This document shows positions 55,645-63,074 of a stretch of 64,000 bases of DNA, one piece after another. The notes beneath the pieces are model-generated. The model saw only the letters and a program-made list of their open reading frames with translations. It was not told the origin of the DNA and ran no database searches. Within the stretch, counting starts at the first letter, position 1; each line of letters begins with the position of its first letter. A program made the translations under genes and the position numbers. Source of the DNA: Candidatus Poribacteria bacterium (GTDB taxonomy: Bacteria > Poribacteria > WGA-4E > WGA-3G); the NCBI GenBank assembly GCA_021295715.1, contig JAGWBV010000030.1, forward strand, positions 31,204-95,203, written 5' to 3'.

Positions 55645-56421
55645 TTAACGTCCCGCTTTCAGGCTGCCCCAGGTTGTAGAGAGTTTTCCAATCGCTTCAA
55701 CAGCGAGCGCATCTACGCCCTGGTCCATGAACGTATTGATCTCATCCTCACTCAGTGCACGATTCCAGAGACGGACCTCGTCAATAATTCCAGCGAAGAC
55801 GTAGTTGAGACGCTCACAATCCTGTCCAATCCGCCACGGATCATCGTTGGCTGCAAGCTTGCCGGGGACATCCCCTTCAGCTTCTTCCTTGCCATCAATG
55901 TAGATTATGCCCTTCTTGGTATCGTTGGTGAAAGCAATATGGATAAATTTCTCGGTGTCAGGCAGACCGGTCGAAATATCGTTGCGACCTGCTTCGGTTT
56001 CAAAACGGAGTTTGAAGGTGCCACCTTCACTAAACAATCCGTATTGAACCCGACCGCCGCAACCGCCATGAACCGATTTACCGACAATCTGGCGCGTACC
56101 GTTCCAATGCTCGGCGTTAACCCACGCCATAAACGTCATTTCATCCACATTTAACTTCGGAGTGCTTTCAACAGTGACAAATACGTCGCTGCCTTCACCG
56201 CCAAATTCCAACGCCTTTCCGAATTTGCCATCAACCCACGTGGGGTTGTCAATTACACCGTGATGTTCGTTTCCGCTAAGATCTTCCGCTTCGTCCCCTT
56301 TGCCTTCGTCATAAGCGTGGTAAACCACCAATCCATCCAAAAATTCTGCTGGACCGATGGACATAGCGAAGGGGGCTACCATCAAGAGTAGTGTGATGGA
56401 TAAACAAATAGATAGTTTCAT
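55645..56421 (-). CDS. Secreted LamG protein with TWG tail
   Basis: 258 residues from ATG 56421, which follows GGGAGGAAAA; the frame is open much further up but without a start context. Signal peptide about 1-22 ('LSICLSITLLLMVAPFAMS'), one LamG domain beginning 'DGLVVYHAYDEGKGDEAEDLSGNEHHG' in outline, 'GFGGEGSDVFVTVESTPKLNVDEMTFMAWVN'-like strands, and end 'FAGIIDEVRLWNRALSEDEI'. Tail 'GKLSTTWGSLKAGR'. It resembles the gene at 59017 (both share 'QIVGKSVHGGCGGRVQYGLFSEGG'-like sequence), so these two form a sub-pair. Promoter at 56696-56724, giving a leader of about 270 bases. Confidence 0.8.
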   Translation of the reverse strand: MKLSICLSITLLLMVAPFAMSIGPAEFLDGLVVYHAYDEGKGDEAEDLSGNEHHGVIDNPTWVDGKFGKALEFGGEGSDVFVTVESTPKLNVDEMTFMAWVNAEHWNGTRQIVGKSVHGGCGGRVQYGLFSEGGTFKLRFETEAGRNDISTGLPDTEKFIHIAFTNDTKKGIIYIDGKEEAEGDVPGKLAANDDPWRIGQDCERLNYVFAGIIDEVRLWNRALSEDEINTFMDQGVDALAVEAIGKLSTTWGSLKAGR

Positions 56422-56797
56422 TGTTAGATTTTCCTCCCTATTAGGTGAAGATGAGGTGTTTTCAATGAGAATAGGGGCTACAGGTTTCCTAAAAACTTGT
56501 AGATAACGTGAGTTTGATAAAAGTGTCACGTAGGGTTTCGCTACCATTATTGACACAGAAAGTGCTTGAAAAACGCCCCGTCTCTCCGCATTCTGCGATT
56601 TTTTCGGCGTATTTACCGCTCTACCTAGGGGAAACACCCAAGCAAAAACACCTACAGATTTATTTTCAAACTGGCGTTAGATAACAAGTTGGGTTATTAT
56701 AACAAACAGAGAAACACCTGTCAAGAAAAAATGTTAGGAAGAAGAAGTCGGGATTCGGAGATCCCTCCTACAGCAGGAAATAGCGGAGAGATAGACA
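56422..56797. other. Long leader and intergenic region
   Basis: Mostly the untranslated leader of the LamG gene (from about 56689). It contains GGGGAAACACCCAAGCAAAA (about 56629), a piece of the CAAAAACAC repeat, and ends at the promoter 56696-56724. No gene seen. Confidence 0.5.
56696..56724 (-). promoter_or_regulatory. Perfect-consensus promoter of LamG gene
   Basis: Minus strand: TTGACA (56724-56719), 17 bases, TATAAT (56701-56696). The nearest downstream gene is the LamG gene starting at 56421, about 270 bases away. Confidence 0.75.
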
Positions 56798-58705
56798 TCA
56801 GATGTTCAAGCCGAGTTGACTGCTCAGTTCCATCAAGCGTTTATTAATTCCGGTCTTATCAATCCGATTGCCCTCTATAAATTCTTGGTATGGCGGTAAC
56901 AGTCCGTCTGGGATCATGATCCGGGAATTCGCCTCTCGTAACGCTAACAATCCCATGAAAAGCTGCATTTCCGGCGAGTAGTCGGGTATGAAGTCATCCA
57001 ACGCCTGACGGAGTTCGGCTTCGGTGAAGGGGTCGCGCCCGTCGAGTTTTGCGATGTTACTCGCGCGTTGGACAATCAAGAACAGGTCCCGCCACGTCAA
57101 TCCATCTGTTTCTGAATCTCCGACAAGTGCCCGGAAGTTAAGTTGATCGGTGGCTTGTCCTTGACAAAATATCTTTAAAATTTCCATCCTACCTTCAGCA
57201 GTTGGGGGTAGCATGATTAATTTGGTATCGAAGATACCATATCGTCGAAAGATCTGCGGCATCAAGTCGGGACGGCATGAGGTGCCGACCCATATCACTC
57301 TCCCGTGCAAAGATGGATCGCTAATAGCGTTTATGAGGTTCTGCGGAAATGTCTGCTGTTCTTCGGGATTCATTGGGGTATACGGTGGCACTTGTTCAAT
57401 CTCATCCATAAAGACAACCGTCGGTGAAATACCGCGGATGAAATTGATAGCGGCATTAAGATTCCGTTCGTAGGTGTTTCCATTCTCATTGATATTTATT
57501 GTTATCTCGCCGACCTGATTAGCATAGCGGAGTTGGACGAGGGTCATGTTCGTCTCACCAGCGAGTACCTTTGCAGCGTAAGCCTTGCTGGTCCCTGGCG
57601 GCCCGAGTAAAAGAATGCCTCGTGGCACGCGTCGCAAGTCCCGATGTCTCATACCATTCGCTATATCCCAAATTGCCCTCATGACGTACCAACCCTCGTC
57701 AGAAGGACCCCTTTCAGTTTCCACCAGTTCAAGGACTCCGTGGCTGAAAGTCTTAATGCTCTCACGTCGGTATCTCACAAGCGGTTCACCGCCCATCTTC
57801 TGTCGTGCAGACTCTGCCTGTTTCACAACATCGTGAATGCCGAAGAGGTTCAGTCCTACTGTCTCGCGGGCGAGGGACTCTCTGTCATGCTCGTTTCCAA
57901 GGCTTGCCCGCATTTGAGACGGCGGATCTGAGATGGTATGGAGATATTCAATGAAATGGAGACGTTGATCGTAGTCTGGAAATGGAACTTCTATCAGCGG
58001 AATCTCCGGATTTACAGTGAGATTTGAATGGATATCAAATGTGTTATGAGTGAGGAGCAGAATGATATGTTTGCGTCTGCGAATTTCTAAATCGGATGCC
58101 CAATTCTGCATCTGGTTGAAAAAGCGTTGTAAAACATCGTTAGAGGCACTGCTCAACGAAGGATCGTTTGGTGCAAGTTGCTCCAGAAAATTAATAACCA
58201 AGCCAATCCGCGCTCTGTCTTGCCGTAAAAGATGGTTCAATCTCTCTTGCAATTCCTCTGAGGGGGCGGGGTCTGTCTGCATGACCGGATCTTCATGAGG
58301 TTTATCGAATGCCAAAGTGGCATTAATTCTTCGGCGTGCGACCAGCGGATCTACCTCTTGCGCATCGAGATTTGCGTCTTCAACTTCCCGAAAACGCCGA
58401 AGCGTCTGAAGCCATGTTGCTATGCTCTGGAAATGAAAAGCACCGGTTTTCTCATATTTCGGGACAACCCCCAGCATTTTTTGGGTCGCTCGCCACCGCC
58501 CAATATTAGGTAAATGAATGCCTTGTGATGTGTTATATCCCATGACGAGTTCACAACCTAAAACGTTGAGCTGCTCCATGAGATATTCATGGGTAGGCAA
58601 GTAGCCGTAGACCTCATCATATAGCAGGTCCTGGACGTTAAAGTGGAGGAGAAATTGGTGTGCAGACCCAGCATCGCAGTGTCTTTTTATCTGTTCCCAA
58701 AACAT
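56798..58705 (-). CDS. Two-part AAA ATPase, Ycf46-like, with variant Walker A
   Basis: 635 residues. Residues about 1-310 form a degenerate first ATPase-like half ('RIGLVINFLEQLAP', 'HIILLLTHN'), and 340-560 a AAA module with Walker B 'TVVFMDEIEQV' (D434, E435) and candidate arginine fingers R487/R488. Walker A reads 'GPPGTSKA' (368-375), so the Ser/Thr after the lysine that holds magnesium is Ala375, confirmed in the DNA (AAG GCT). The sensor-1 position is Ser/Cys ('GTSCRPD') rather than Asn. The arrangement recalls Ycf46-like proteins. Function unknown; a remodelling or regulatory role is possible. The ATG touches a leader-element tail. Confidence 0.78.
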   Translation of the reverse strand: MFWEQIKRHCDAGSAHQFLLHFNVQDLLYDEVYGYLPTHEYLMEQLNVLGCELVMGYNTSQGIHLPNIGRWRATQKMLGVVPKYEKTGAFHFQSIATWLQTLRRFREVEDANLDAQEVDPLVARRRINATLAFDKPHEDPVMQTDPAPSEELQERLNHLLRQDRARIGLVINFLEQLAPNDPSLSSASNDVLQRFFNQMQNWASDLEIRRRKHIILLLTHNTFDIHSNLTVNPEIPLIEVPFPDYDQRLHFIEYLHTISDPPSQMRASLGNEHDRESLARETVGLNLFGIHDVVKQAESARQKMGGEPLVRYRRESIKTFSHGVLELVETERGPSDEGWYVMRAIWDIANGMRHRDLRRVPRGILLLGPPGTSKAYAAKVLAGETNMTLVQLRYANQVGEITININENGNTYERNLNAAINFIRGISPTVVFMDEIEQVPPYTPMNPEEQQTFPQNLINAISDPSLHGRVIWVGTSCRPDLMPQIFRRYGIFDTKLIMLPPTAEGRMEILKIFCQGQATDQLNFRALVGDSETDGLTWRDLFLIVQRASNIAKLDGRDPFTEAELRQALDDFIPDYSPEMQLFMGLLALREANSRIMIPDGLLPPYQEFIEGNRIDKTGINKRLMELSSQLGLNI

Positions 58706-59016: not shown

Positions 59017-59805
59017 TTAGTGAGCAGTTTTGATGCCGCCCCAAGTGGTGGCTAATTTCGCGCGAGGATCAACAGACACATCTAAGTCTTGTGCACTAAG
59101 GATTTCGTCAGCACTCAAAGCACGGTTCCAGAGAGAGACCTCGTCTATGATGCCCGCGAAAACATAATTGAGACGTTCACAATCTTGTCCGATCCGCCAC
59201 GGATCGTCGTTAGCATTCAGTTCACCCGGCACTTCACCATCCACAACGGCTTCAGCGTTGATGTAGATTGTTGCTGTTTCGCCATCGTTGGTAAAAGCAA
59301 CGTGAACCCACTCGCCTGTCGGTGGAAGATCGGTTGTGATGTCGGCTCTACCGCTTCCGGTTTCAAAACGAAGTTTGAAAACCCCACCTTCGCTGAATAG
59401 ACCGTATTGCGTTCTACCCGCACACCCACCGTGAACGGATTTACCAACAATCTGACGCGTGCCATTCCAGTGGTCGGCGTTAATCCATGCTGCAAACGAA
59501 CACTCGTTCACGTTCAAGACATCCGTGCTTTCAACAGTAACGAACACGTCGCTGCCGTCGCCACCAAACTGAAGAGCCTTTCCACTGTATCCGTCTACCC
59601 AATCTGGGTTAGAAATTTCACCATCGTGTCCGTTACCGCTCGTGTCTCCAGCGAGTGTGCCTTCTCCTTCATCGTAAGAGTGATGTAGGACAAGCCCATC
59701 TGTGAGAGCTGCCGAGACGAATGGTGTGAATAGCATTGTCAGTGCTACCGAGAGAGACACAATCCCATAGAATGAGAATCTGCCAGTCAATATTGCGTTC
59801 TTCAT
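59017..59805 (-). CDS. Secreted LamG protein, divergent TWG tail
   Basis: 262 residues; GATAGGAGG precedes the ATG at 59805. Signal peptide about 1-32 ('YGIVSLSVALTMLFTPFVSA'), one LamG domain ('DGLVLHHSYDEGEGTLAGDTSGNGHDG' in outline, through 'FAGIIDEVSLWNRALSADEI'). The C-terminus 'RAKLATTWGGIKTAH' is the most divergent version of the shared tail but keeps the KLATTWG core. Closest to the LamG gene at 55645. It has a perfect-consensus promoter (59835-59863), so it is probably well expressed. Role: exported binding protein. Confidence 0.8.
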   Translation of the reverse strand: MKNAILTGRFSFYGIVSLSVALTMLFTPFVSAALTDGLVLHHSYDEGEGTLAGDTSGNGHDGEISNPDWVDGYSGKALQFGGDGSDVFVTVESTDVLNVNECSFAAWINADHWNGTRQIVGKSVHGGCAGRTQYGLFSEGGVFKLRFETGSGRADITTDLPPTGEWVHVAFTNDGETATIYINAEAVVDGEVPGELNANDDPWRIGQDCERLNYVFAGIIDEVSLWNRALSADEILSAQDLDVSVDPRAKLATTWGGIKTAH

Positions 59806-60091: not shown

Positions 60092-61465
60092 ATGAGAAAA
60101 ACACGGGGCGATTTAACCCGAGGGAGTCTCCTAAGACACCTGCTACGGCTGTCAGGACCGATCATACTCAGCTACATGCTGCAAGAGGCATTCAACATCG
60201 TCGACATGATCTTCGTTGGAAGGCTCGGTGCTGGCGCGATAGCGGCTGTCGGGGTGAGCGGAAACTTAATCCGATTAATCGGGGTTTTCTCGCTTGGCAT
60301 TTCAACAGGAACCGGGATTATGGTGGCGCAGTATCTCGGAGCGAGGAACCTCGCACAAGCTGAACACATCGCCCTGCAGTCAATCCTGTTAGCTGTGTTT
60401 TTTTCTATCGGTGTCACCTTCGTCGGTTACCCCTTAGCTGAGCAAGGGTTACTCGCCGTCAGAATGGTAGATCCAGAGGTGCTCAGGCTCGGCACCACTT
60501 ACATGCATATCATTCTCGCCGGTATTAGTACAATGTTCGTGTCGATGACGCTCGGTTCCATCTTTCGCGCCGGTGGCGACACAATCACCCCGATGGTGGT
60601 GCTGATTTTCGCAACACTGATTAACATTGTGCTTGATCCGTTACTGATCTTCGGTTTATGGGGATTTCCAAAACTCGGAGTCGCAGGTTCGGCGTATGCG
60701 ACGCTTATCGGGCGCGGCGCGAGCGTATTTATCCTACTTTATCTCTGTTGGAGTGGACGCGCCCCTGTTTCATTTCGGAGTGTTCGGTATCAGGTAGATT
60801 TCGTGGAGATGCTTGACATTTTAAGACTCGGCGTTTACAGTTCTATGCAAGGGTTTTGGCGGCATATTTCGCGACTCGGTTTCCTGTGGGTCATCGGACC
60901 TTACGGAAAGACCGTCGTTGCGGCATATACGATTTGTATGCGGCTTCGGATCCTCGTAATGAATCCCGGCTTCGGCATTGCAAACGCTGTTGTTCCCTTA
61001 GTCGGACAGAATTTAGGGGCGAATCAGATAGAACGCGCTGAGAGCTCAACACGAGTAGCGAACCTTTTAGGTGCTGCAATCATGGCAGTCATCGGTGCTG
61101 TTTTCTTCCTTTTCCCAGAGACATTCATCCGGATTTTCACACCGGAAACGGGTGTTATTGAGATCGGTATCACTTATCTACGATTTCTGTCTCCGACGTT
61201 CGGATTCATCGCCTTTTCGCTCATCTTAGGAAGAGCACTCAACGGTGCCGGAGATACGTTCTCTCCGATGGTGATTACGCTCGCCGCACAGGTCGTCATC
61301 GGTTTGGGACTCGTGATTCTACTTTCACACTTCATCGGTCTTAATGGCGTTTGGTCAGGCATCGCCCTCTCAAACGTTGTGCAAGGCATCGCAATGTGGT
61401 TTTGGTACAGTACCGGAAGATGGAAGGGAATAAAAATTGTTAAAAAGAAACCAAAAGTAGCGTAG
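60092..61465 (+). CDS. MATE-family efflux transporter
   Basis: 457 residues, twelve membrane helices in two homologous halves, with 'DMIFVGRLGAGAIAAVGVSGN' in outline after helix 1 and the matching 'GALNGAGDTFSPM'-type loop ('RALNGAGDTFSPMV') in the second half. MATE proteins export drugs, dyes or metabolites using sodium or proton gradients; a few move lipid-linked sugars. The C-terminal 'KKKPKVA' is a basic cytoplasmic tail. It precedes the rhodanese gene by 43 bases, perhaps one transcript. Translation starts from the leader element. Confidence 0.9.
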   Translation: MRKTRGDLTRGSLLRHLLRLSGPIILSYMLQEAFNIVDMIFVGRLGAGAIAAVGVSGNLIRLIGVFSLGISTGTGIMVAQYLGARNLAQAEHIALQSILLAVFFSIGVTFVGYPLAEQGLLAVRMVDPEVLRLGTTYMHIILAGISTMFVSMTLGSIFRAGGDTITPMVVLIFATLINIVLDPLLIFGLWGFPKLGVAGSAYATLIGRGASVFILLYLCWSGRAPVSFRSVRYQVDFVEMLDILRLGVYSSMQGFWRHISRLGFLWVIGPYGKTVVAAYTICMRLRILVMNPGFGIANAVVPLVGQNLGANQIERAESSTRVANLLGAAIMAVIGAVFFLFPETFIRIFTPETGVIEIGITYLRFLSPTFGFIAFSLILGRALNGAGDTFSPMVITLAAQVVIGLGLVILLSHFIGLNGVWSGIALSNVVQGIAMWFWYSTGRWKGIKIVKKKPKVA

Positions 61466-61508
61466 GACAGTAAATATATCCTACAAAAAATTCAGGAGGA
61501 GTTGGCGA

Positions 61509-62348
61509 ATGATGGACACCTATAAGGGTTACGTAAATCCACAATTGGTTATCTCTGCTGAGGAATTGAAAGGCACACTCGGCGATCAAATATTTTGCAT
61601 CGTTGATACACGACCGACGTATGAATACATCCGCGGACACATCCCGGGGGCACTTCATTTGGATTTGTTCGGTTTAAGCCTTATTGATACTCGGAAAGAG
61701 ACGTTCGATGCCTTTATGTGGATGATAGCATACCTCTTTCAGCAACGCGGTCTTGATCCGAGTAAACCGATTGTATGGTATGAAGACATATCGGGAACGC
61801 GCGCCTCGCGCGGGTTCTGGTTCTGCGAATACTTAGGGCATCCCGAAACCCGTCTGTTAGATGGTGGTTTCAAGGCGTGGCTGTCAGCAGATGGACCTAT
61901 TAGTACAGCAGGGGCTGAACCCCCCGAGGTCCCACCTTTTCCGATAAATGCGCAACACGATATACACATGGATGCTGATGTGATCCGTGTCCTGTTAAAC
62001 CGGAGCGACTTTGTTCCGCTTGATACACGCACTGACGATGAACACTACGGTAGGGTTGCCCGTGCAGAACGTGCAGGTGCTATTCCGGGTTCTATCCACA
62101 TTGAATGGCTCAATAATCTTGACGAAGCGGGGGCATTCAAATCTGCTGATGAACTCAGAGAGATGTATGAAGCCGTCGGTATTACACCGGAAAAACAGGT
62201 TATGTGCTACTGACAGGGAGGCTACCGCTCTTCCCAAGCCTATTTGGCATTGCGGCTCTTGGGGTATCCAAAAGTCAGCAACTATATAGGCTCATGGAAA
62301 GAGTGGGGTGACCGGCTGGATCTGCCGGTCGAAATTCCTCAAGCTTAG
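61509..62348 (+). CDS. Tandem-domain rhodanese, candidate selenoprotein (UGA = Sec235)
   Basis: 279 residues if the in-frame TGA at 62211-62213 (codon 235) is read as selenocysteine. Before it are a non-catalytic rhodanese domain ('[19 protein letters not shown]', pseudo-loop '[13 protein letters not shown]') and most of a second domain ('[11 protein letters not shown]', '[11 protein letters not shown]'). The TGA falls exactly on the catalytic Cys of the loop Y-C-Q-G-G-x-R-S: here VMCY-[UGA]-QGGYRSS. After it, 44 codons keep the family pattern ('[16 protein letters not shown]', '[14 protein letters not shown]') to TAG 62346-62348, giving the normal length near 280. The convergent gene begins four bases later, leaving no spare space. 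AGGAGGAG precedes the ATG. A recent TGC/TGT to TGA nonsense change is the alternative. Confidence 0.75.
62214..62264 (+). promoter_or_regulatory. Candidate bacterial SECIS region (weak)
   Basis: Just after the UGA, CCCAAG (62233-62238) can pair with CTTGGG (62258-62263) around a 19-base apical part; within it GCC (62238-62240) can pair with GGC (62246-62248). The apical part lies 25-44 bases from the UGA, roughly where bacterial SECIS loops sit. A competing stem GGGA (62216-62219) / TCCC (62232-62235) exists. The match to the loop rule (G among its first bases) is not clear by eye. Confidence 0.3.
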
Positions 62349-62351
62349 TGT

Positions 62352-63074
62352 TTACAACGCGCGGCGCGTGTTTATCACTTTAGCGACTTCAACCGGGCAT
62401 TCATGCGGTAGATAATGCCCGGCGCTGGGTATCCATACCCACTGAATATTCGGATTGGACGGAATGCACAACTTCTGCTCAGTTAAATCATTTCGTCCCA
62501 GACTCCCAAAAACTTCACAGATAGGGATGCGTGCCTGCTCCAGGTAGGCGTAGGCATCGGAATTTTTGACAGATTCCCAAAAACCGTGCCAAATTTCAGA
62601 TTTAAAGCGATTTCGCGTCTCTTTTGCTTTCTCCTGAATCTCGGCAATAGTGGACTGAGACAGTGAACCGTAAAACCGTCCGGTATCGAAAGCACTCCCT
62701 GCAGCTGAAAGGCGCGTCCATCCCTCCAGCAGCACAAGTCCAACAACACACGATGAGCGTCTGGCGACTTCCATTGCTACCATACCCCCCAGACTGTGAC
62801 CAACGATCATCCATTCTTGAATTCCCAAATGGTCTACAAGGTCCAACACATCATTAGCAAGACAGCCTAATGTAAACGGTTTTGTTGGCACAGAACTCCG
62901 TCCATGTCCACGAAAATCGAGAGCGATGCAACGCTGCTCACACGGTAATTTTTTAATCACCCGTGTCCAATCCGATGCGTCACATCCAGTCCCGTGTAAG
63001 AAGAGCAGTGGCTGTCCCAATCCTCCTGAATCAAAGTAAGCCATCTCTCCCCAACAGGTTGCAATTGTTGCCAT
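62352..63074 (-). CDS. Alpha/beta hydrolase
   Basis: 240 residues. 'LFLHGTGCDASDW' gives the oxyanion region and 'VGHSLGGM' the nucleophile Ser94; 'ALDFRGHGRS' is the usual strand before helix A, and the His is in 'PSAGHYLPHECP' near the C-terminus. A typical small esterase/lactonase-like member of the family; the cap region (about 120-170) is short. It ends four bases from the convergent rhodanese stop. Upstream, 36 bases away, is the amidohydrolase gene in the same direction, so they are probably co-transcribed, perhaps acting on successive ester or lactone bonds. Confidence 0.85.
   Translation of the reverse strand: MATIATCWGEMAYFDSGGLGQPLLFLHGTGCDASDWTRVIKKLPCEQRCIALDFRGHGRSSVPTKPFTLGCLANDVLDLVDHLGIQEWMIVGHSLGGMVAMEVARRSSCVVGLVLLEGWTRLSAAGSAFDTGRFYGSLSQSTIAEIQEKAKETRNRFKSEIWHGFWESVKNSDAYAYLEQARIPICEVFGSLGRNDLTEQKLCIPSNPNIQWVWIPSAGHYLPHECPVEVAKVINTRRAL

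Follow-up and report, generated by a model that had tools for sequence, protein, structure and literature searches.

A probable selenocysteine-containing rhodanese from Candidatus Poribacteria with a candidate bipartite, long-range SECIS element

A gene from a sponge-associated bacterium (Candidatus Poribacteria) is probably a true selenoprotein gene. Its product would be a two-domain rhodanese with a selenocysteine (Sec235) decoded through a bipartite SECIS element made of a long-range helix (P1) and a hairpin that follows it (P2); we put the probability of this reading at roughly 0.8. The gene lies in the 64,000-nt stretch of MAG-derived DNA that we analyzed (the window). The prediction of selenoproteins in bacteria assumes, as does the textbook model, a hairpin directly behind the UGA. 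According to reviews, the consensus does not cover every selenoprotein gene of bacteria, and the exceptions may contain SECIS of other classes (PMC13188914, PMC12013277). What this gene offers is a concrete candidate SECIS class with covariation, in which a helix would be folded out and the hairpin would come to lie at the usual effective distance.

The rhodanese gene (61509-62348, + strand) is preceded by a Shine-Dalgarno-like AGGAGG (61495-61500), and its frame is open to a TAG terminator (62346-62348) save for one TGA at 62211-62213 (codon 235), giving a protein of 279 amino acids with U235. The product is a tandem-domain, COG2897/SseA-like sulfurtransferase: the Pfam Rhodanese family matched it twice (E 2e-35), phmmer against solved structures returned 1e0c (E 2e-39) and 1uar (E 2e-37), and the same two structures were the best Foldseek matches to its AlphaFold2 model (mean pLDDT 85.8). 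In that model, residue 235 sits between a strand (230-234) and a helix (236-250), which is the rhodanese active-site loop. An earlier note on this DNA had placed the TGA at the residue of a tandem rhodanese that carries the sulfane sulfur, and the alignment bears this out: U235 matches the catalytic Cys in the CQTHHR loop of Azotobacter RhdA (1e0c) and in the other solved tandem rhodaneses. The N-terminal domain has no Cys at the equivalent loop, as in RhdA; the protein has the two domains, the catalytic residue in the second domain and the six-residue loop (UQGGYR) of a tandem rhodanese. Four NCBIfam equivalogs scored below their curated cut-offs: PRK11493 (3-mercaptopyruvate sulfurtransferase; 97.7 vs 250 bits), rhodanese_LYCAU (32.8 vs 115 bits), ExtH (52.2 vs 200) and TsoB (20.9 vs 805). 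Rhodaneses carry sulfane sulfur as a persulfide on the loop Cys. Sec235, in the C-terminal domain, would be the sole catalytic residue here, taking sulfane sulfur from donors that are presumably thiosulfate or persulfides to form an R-Se-S- intermediate and passing it to a nucleophilic acceptor; this intermediate would be expected to be formed and released more quickly and to resist over-oxidation.

Upstream of the rhodanese gene, at a distance of 43 bp, lies a gene for a MATE-type transporter (60092-61465, + strand), which is also the neighbor in the near relatives sampled and overlaps the rhodanese gene by 4 nt in some of them (L105, L113, L114), an arrangement that suggests translational coupling of the two genes. 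Downstream, the earlier note had the next gene starting four bases after the TAG; this gene (62352-63074), alpha/beta-hydrolase-like by its sequence, is on the minus strand, so that it is the end of the gene that lies there. It is convergent with the rhodanese gene and is not part of the Sec-rhodanese system. We found no operon that is conserved across families, the MATE neighbor being confined to near relatives. Elsewhere, one gene of family f4 and one Latescibacterota Cys gene adjoin a gene for a PLP enzyme that is cystathionine-synthase-like, and a molybdenum-hydroxylase-like gene precedes the rhodanese gene of the Nitrospinota MAG (families again assigned from sequence). Farther upstream in the window, two similar secreted LamG/concanavalin-like proteins (55645-56637 and 59017-59805) are encoded around an AAA-type ATPase gene (56798-58705).

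The TGA is conserved well beyond this genome. In a search of 60 relatives, the same TGA was present in every full-length homologue of the genus and in homologues from two other families of the order, with none in family f3; a scan of GTDB species genomes added TGA forms from Latescibacterota, "Gemmatimonadota" and Nitrospinota MAGs. As the earlier note had proposed, we aligned homologues at codon 235, and relatives carry either TGA or Cys codons there (39 TGA, 2 TGC and 1 TGT among 42 aligned loci). Every full-length UGA homologue has exactly one internal stop, always TGA; the scattered downstream stops that would have spoken for decay are thus missing from these genes. The earlier note had also described 44 codons past the TGA that continue the family pattern to the TAG, and indeed frame and length are kept and purifying selection downstream is strong (dN 0.01-0.03 and dS 0.26-0.67 within the genus; dN 0.03-0.10 between families). 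We considered a pseudogene or sequencing error, in which the TGA would be a chance nonsense mutation in this one MAG. The MAG origin of the region is the one point in its favor, and it is not specific to this locus, while the same TGA occurs throughout the genus and in several phyla, including relatives with single-contig genomes (G005, G010, G022, G029), and dN/dS past the TGA is far below 1. We consider this explanation negligible; with TGA at this codon in 39 of 42 loci, chance is excluded, in agreement with the earlier note, which had argued that a random nonsense mutation would rarely hit this codon.

Genome-wide reassignment of TGA was also ruled out. TGA is the terminator of 10 other window ORFs of at least 150 aa, and several f4 rhodanese genes use TGA both as Sec codon and as stop within one gene; thus, the standard code applies.

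Eight Cys homologues were found, in f3 Poribacteria, one Latescibacterota, Deltaproteobacteria, a Syntrophobacter and an unplaced bacterium. One Cys form (L146:2501-3316, bacterium JZ-2.bins.100) keeps P1 and a UGGAUCU loop with one mismatch in P2, which suggests that it reverted from Sec to Cys recently and retains a remnant of the element. Several MAGs titled Gemmatimonadota or Gemmatimonadetes (L133, L139, L141, L145, L151, L152) encode rhodaneses nearly identical to those of Latescibacterota; these titles are probably outdated or wrong, with several of the MAGs falling in one phylum with Latescibacterota. A plasmid collection yielded no match.

The earlier note had suggested searching the genome for the Sec machinery, and the outcome was mixed for this MAG (96% complete, 175 contigs) and clear for its sisters. 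The MAG has a full selB (C54:29721-31616) and a selD with its own UGA (C29:59245-60168), and we did not find selA in the assembly. The surroundings of selA form one block in G010, G008 and G033, and contig C150 of our MAG starts 2.6 kb past the expected position of selA, with the remaining block missing; since the block breaks off at this contig start, the absence of selA is most simply read as a gap in the assembly. The tRNA-Sec gene, 3' of selB (L045:11680-11753, contig C54), breaks off within the contig after 74 of its 90 nt, about 190 bp are absent between it and lipA, and the assembly holds no second copy. In relatives, tRNA-Sec is complete with anticodon UCA, and nearly all sister genomes have selA, selB, tRNA-Sec and selD. 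Moreover, selA occurs in 15 of 16 further genomes with relatives of the gene from outside the genus, UGA and Cys forms alike, so the Cys forms did not simply arise from loss of Sec decoding.

If the tRNA-Sec truncation is real, the strain of the window no longer decodes Sec. In that case, this species alone would have lost Sec decoding recently, such that a selenoprotein gene of its relatives is truncated here, and both the cut tRNA-Sec within a contig and the lack of selA fit such a loss. Against it, the stretch that would hold selA is missing up to the start of a contig, the selD and rhodanese frames are undamaged in a MAG of this completeness, and G025 is likewise broken within its tRNA-Sec gene at contig ends, which makes assembly trouble at this locus plausible. 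We regard a recent loss as distinctly unlikely. Copies of tRNA-Sec lie at two contig ends in G002, and G054 has two copies; the tRNA-Sec locus may therefore be a site of integration or one that is prone to misassembly. In G027, C50:153489-155384 and 157864-158679 hold a full selB and, about 2.5 kb from it, a second selB-like fragment. Given the conserved TGA, the selection past it, selB and selD in the MAG itself and intact selA and tRNA-Sec in its sisters, residue 235 is almost certainly Sec, and the product would be expected to contain selenium.

The UGA is followed by an RNA element with two parts (numbered with the U of UGA as nt 0). After an 11-nt spacer (62214-62224), the 5' strand of P1 (CCGCUCUUCC, 62225-62234) pairs with a 3' strand (GG-A-AAGAGUGG, 62296-62306) that has one bulged A; both strands were defined by consensus folds and covariation. 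P1 is thus a long-range helix of 8-10 bp that starts exactly 11 nt past the UGA and closes about 80 nt further on (pairs 14-95, 15-94, 16-93, 17-92, 18-91, 19-90, 20-89 and 21-88, then the bulged A, then 22-86 and 23-85). A GGN linker of 3 nt (62307-62309) leads to P2 (62310-62330; GACCGGC-UGGAUCU-GCCGGUC), the candidate SelB recognition hairpin, with a 7-bp stem (pairs 99-119 to 105-113), a 7-nt loop (106-112; UGGANYU) and GG in the loop. The distance from UGA to the P2 loop is 103 nt in linear sequence and 21 nt (11 + 3 + 7) with P1 folded out. The 61-nt interior of P1 (62235-62295) forms an irregular stem of weakly conserved structure in the window RNA; a long irregular stem is seen in distant UGA genes as well, with some inner pairs near-invariant and weak covariation.

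Several tests support this structure. Consensus folding was based on 79 distinct UGA genes and a region of 126 nt. Without constraints, RNAalifold returned P1 and P2 and nothing else, with a consensus energy of -21.6 kcal/mol, compared to -7.8 (sd 3.0) in 300 codon-column shuffles (z -4.6; 0 of 300 as good). The shuffles moved whole codon columns, keeping protein and relatedness, so that the structure is not accounted for by protein constraint. The window RNA itself folds at -55.2 kcal/mol (z -4.2). When all possible 8-bp helices in the 126 nt were considered, P1 and P2 alone could form in over half of the sequences. With the partner columns slid by 1-3 positions, pairing was 35-49%, compared to 97.4% in register, and both-sided changes fell to 0-3 cells, compared to 24. 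Synonymous diversity among the UGA genes is lowered in two stretches near the UGA (codons -2 to +16 and +29 to +44), which are the strands of the long-range helix and the following hairpin. Four Latescibacterota UGA sequences outside the definition of the model retain 9/9 pairs of P1 and 7/7 of P2, a modest check, since the four are close kin of known sequences.

Although most positions of P1 and P2 are invariant, and thus uninformative for or against pairing, the variable ones covary. In the 79 genes, pair 17/92 of P1 is C-G in 58, U-A in 17 and U-G in 4, and pair 20/89 is U-A in 71 and C-G in 8; each of these four nucleotides is a synonymous third position, in codons for Arg, Glu, Ser and Lys. 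Parsimony on a tree of the upstream protein places joint changes on about 5 branches for 17/92 and about 3 for 20/89. Compensatory changes in P2 affect pairs 101/117 (C-G to U-A) and 102/116 (C-G to A-U). Of the 574 third-position column pairs in the gene that set a pyrimidine against a purine, these two P1 pairs take the top two places (phi 1.00 and 0.87, compared to a mean of 0.02 with sd 0.20), and U-A at 17/92 occurs together with C-G at 20/89 in five GC-rich genes. This ranking and these mixed pairs rule out drift in GC content as the source of the P1 covariation.

The element is tied to the UGA. In a contrast that rests on eight Cys homologues, P1 was intact in 78/79 UGA genes and 1/8 Cys homologues (L146), the inner 6 bp of P2 were intact in 77/79 and 0/8, and mean pairing probabilities for P1 and P2 were 0.85 and 0.89 in UGA genes, compared to 0.01 and 0.00 in Cys homologues. 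Part of the invariant UGGA in the P2 loop falls on third codon positions (Leu and Asp), which protein constraint alone need not fix. No Rfam family scored over its gathering threshold for the element, and a covariance model of the element run against the relatives matched this gene, its Cys orthologues and, weakly, rhodanese paralogues only. We rejected a transcription terminator as the identity of P2, since there is no U-tract and the hairpin lies within the ORF, is kept despite differing downstream neighbors and is absent from Cys homologues. Thus, conservation of P1 and P2 with covariation, and their association with UGA, are established at the level of sequence, and we consider it highly likely that together they make up a functional UGA-linked RNA element. 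With the alternation of TGA and Cys codons, the selection past the TGA and the Sec machinery of the lineage, this element strengthens the Sec235 sulfurtransferase reading of the earlier note.

A helix 3' of a leaky UGA could also stimulate readthrough in which an ordinary amino acid is inserted, a mechanism found in some plant viruses. The long-range position of P1 and the lack of an intact tRNA-Sec and selA in this MAG would fit programmed readthrough, but the UGA is confined to the catalytic Cys position, where it alternates with Cys codons, the Sec machinery including tRNA-Sec is found across the lineage, and selD in the same genomes has a UGA with its own proximal hairpin. We judge readthrough of this kind to be very improbable.

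To compare the element with known bacterial SECIS, we took the rules, including those on spacing, from reviews: a loop of 3-9 nt with G in its first two positions and a stem of 4-16 bp, with 16-37 nt from UGA to apical loop (PMC13188914, PMC10778597), and an MFE of <= -7.5 kcal/mol (PMC13188914 Fig. 2). The loop and stem of P2 conform to these rules, and its mean MFE of -12.1 kcal/mol (range -13.1 to -6.9) is within the threshold; its 103 nt of linear sequence from UGA to loop fall outside the canonical spacing. A conventional alternative is that a proximal hairpin (nt 4-20, AGGGCGG-AUA-CCGCUCU) is the signal, and that P1 and P2 are unrelated mRNA structure. RNAalifold finds this hairpin if limited to the first 36-48 nt, and SECIS-like proximal hairpins were drawn earlier for the rhodanese family (PMC1088965, Figure 3 legend). 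However, its 3-nt loop lacks the expected G and lies about 8 nt past the UGA, short of the usual 16-37 nt (PMC13188914); P1 needs the strand CCGCUCU of this hairpin; it shows mismatches at nt 8/16 and 4/20 with no compensatory changes, all seven pairs being possible in 59/79 genes only; and it leaves the conservation of P2, the invariant UGGA loop and the loss in Cys homologues unexplained. No proximal conventional SECIS is supported in this gene, and we consider this alternative unlikely.

Returning to the bipartite element, we propose that SelB with Sec-tRNA-Sec would decode the UGA, that SelB would bind P2 about 100 nt 3' of it, and that P1 would fold out 82 nt of coding sequence and so place P2 at the mRNA entry of the ribosome. 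That P2 serves as the SelB site and P1 as the device that sets the distance seems somewhat probable, because P2 follows the loop and stem rules, the folded path is 21 nt and the UGGA is invariant. The likely explanation for such a long-range design is that the near-invariant peptide YUQGGYRSS, at the active site, leaves no space for a canonical proximal hairpin. The earlier note had proposed bSECISearch on 62205-62270; this would probably miss or mis-draw the signal, since the supported element spans 62225-62330. It is reasonably probable that the element represents a separate bacterial SECIS class, common to Poribacteria, Latescibacterota and Nitrospinota, with a hairpin about 100 nt away and an obligatory helix. 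If so, searches for selenoproteins would change, the occurrence of Sec in highly constrained catalytic loops, freed from encoding a hairpin, would be accounted for, and there would be a route to recombinant Sec insertion that leaves neighboring residues unaltered.

The protein itself is a member of an already catalogued family, here in Poribacteria. Consistent with the earlier note, which mentioned rhodanese-like selenoproteins from marine metagenomes, Sec-containing COG2897 rhodaneses have been catalogued since the 2005 Sargasso Sea survey (PMC1088965), Sec forms of COG2897/SseA were reported in GOS in 2008 (PMC2398784) and in PMC9312934, and PMC13188914 lists a 'Rhodanese-like form 4' with the motif UxxG. 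Our literature search, outside which most subscription papers lie, turned up nothing that pairs Poribacteria with a selenoprotein and no counterpart to P1/P2. The catalogued proteins resemble ours in their two domains, COG2897 membership, catalytic Sec and U-x-x-G motif (here UQGG), with Cys homologues widespread; compared by description only, they have a proximal SECIS-like hairpin, whereas the element here is long-range and bipartite. Azotobacter RhdA (1e0c) and the Thermus rhodanese (1uar) share with our protein the fold, an inactive N-terminal domain and a six-residue catalytic loop ending in Arg, but carry Cys in place of Sec, at about 30% identity.

Within the same genomes, selD has an active-site UGA, a lineage-wide spread and the same SelB, but by inspection its hairpin is an ordinary proximal one (loops CGGG or AGUU, about 17-18 nt past the UGA), which argues for a SelB of the usual kind and for a long-range form that is peculiar to the rhodanese. 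The selD genes of relatives (L046, L157-L176) differ by lineage in this hairpin (GCUC-CGGGU-GAGC, GAUC-CGGGU-GAUC, AGUCC-AGUU-GGACU), which suggests covariation in a conventional SECIS; the hairpins were read by eye, as the lineages are too divergent for a consensus fold, which gave no structure.

Compared to the canonical SECIS of E. coli fdhF, whose minimal hairpin starts 11 nt from the UGA (PMC8659212), and to the bSECISearch consensus, the element likewise starts 11 nt past the UGA, and P2 is alike in its 7-bp stem, 7-nt loop, G at loop position 2 followed by another G, and stability; the canonical loop lies 16-37 nt away, whereas the P2 loop is 103 nt away, a distance that the helix closes by folding out 82 nt. 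Remoteness of the recognition element from the UGA is also a feature of archaeal and eukaryotic SECIS. In contrast to those elements, which sit in the 3' UTR and have other motifs, the element described here lies inside the reading frame and would reach the canonical distance through base pairing.
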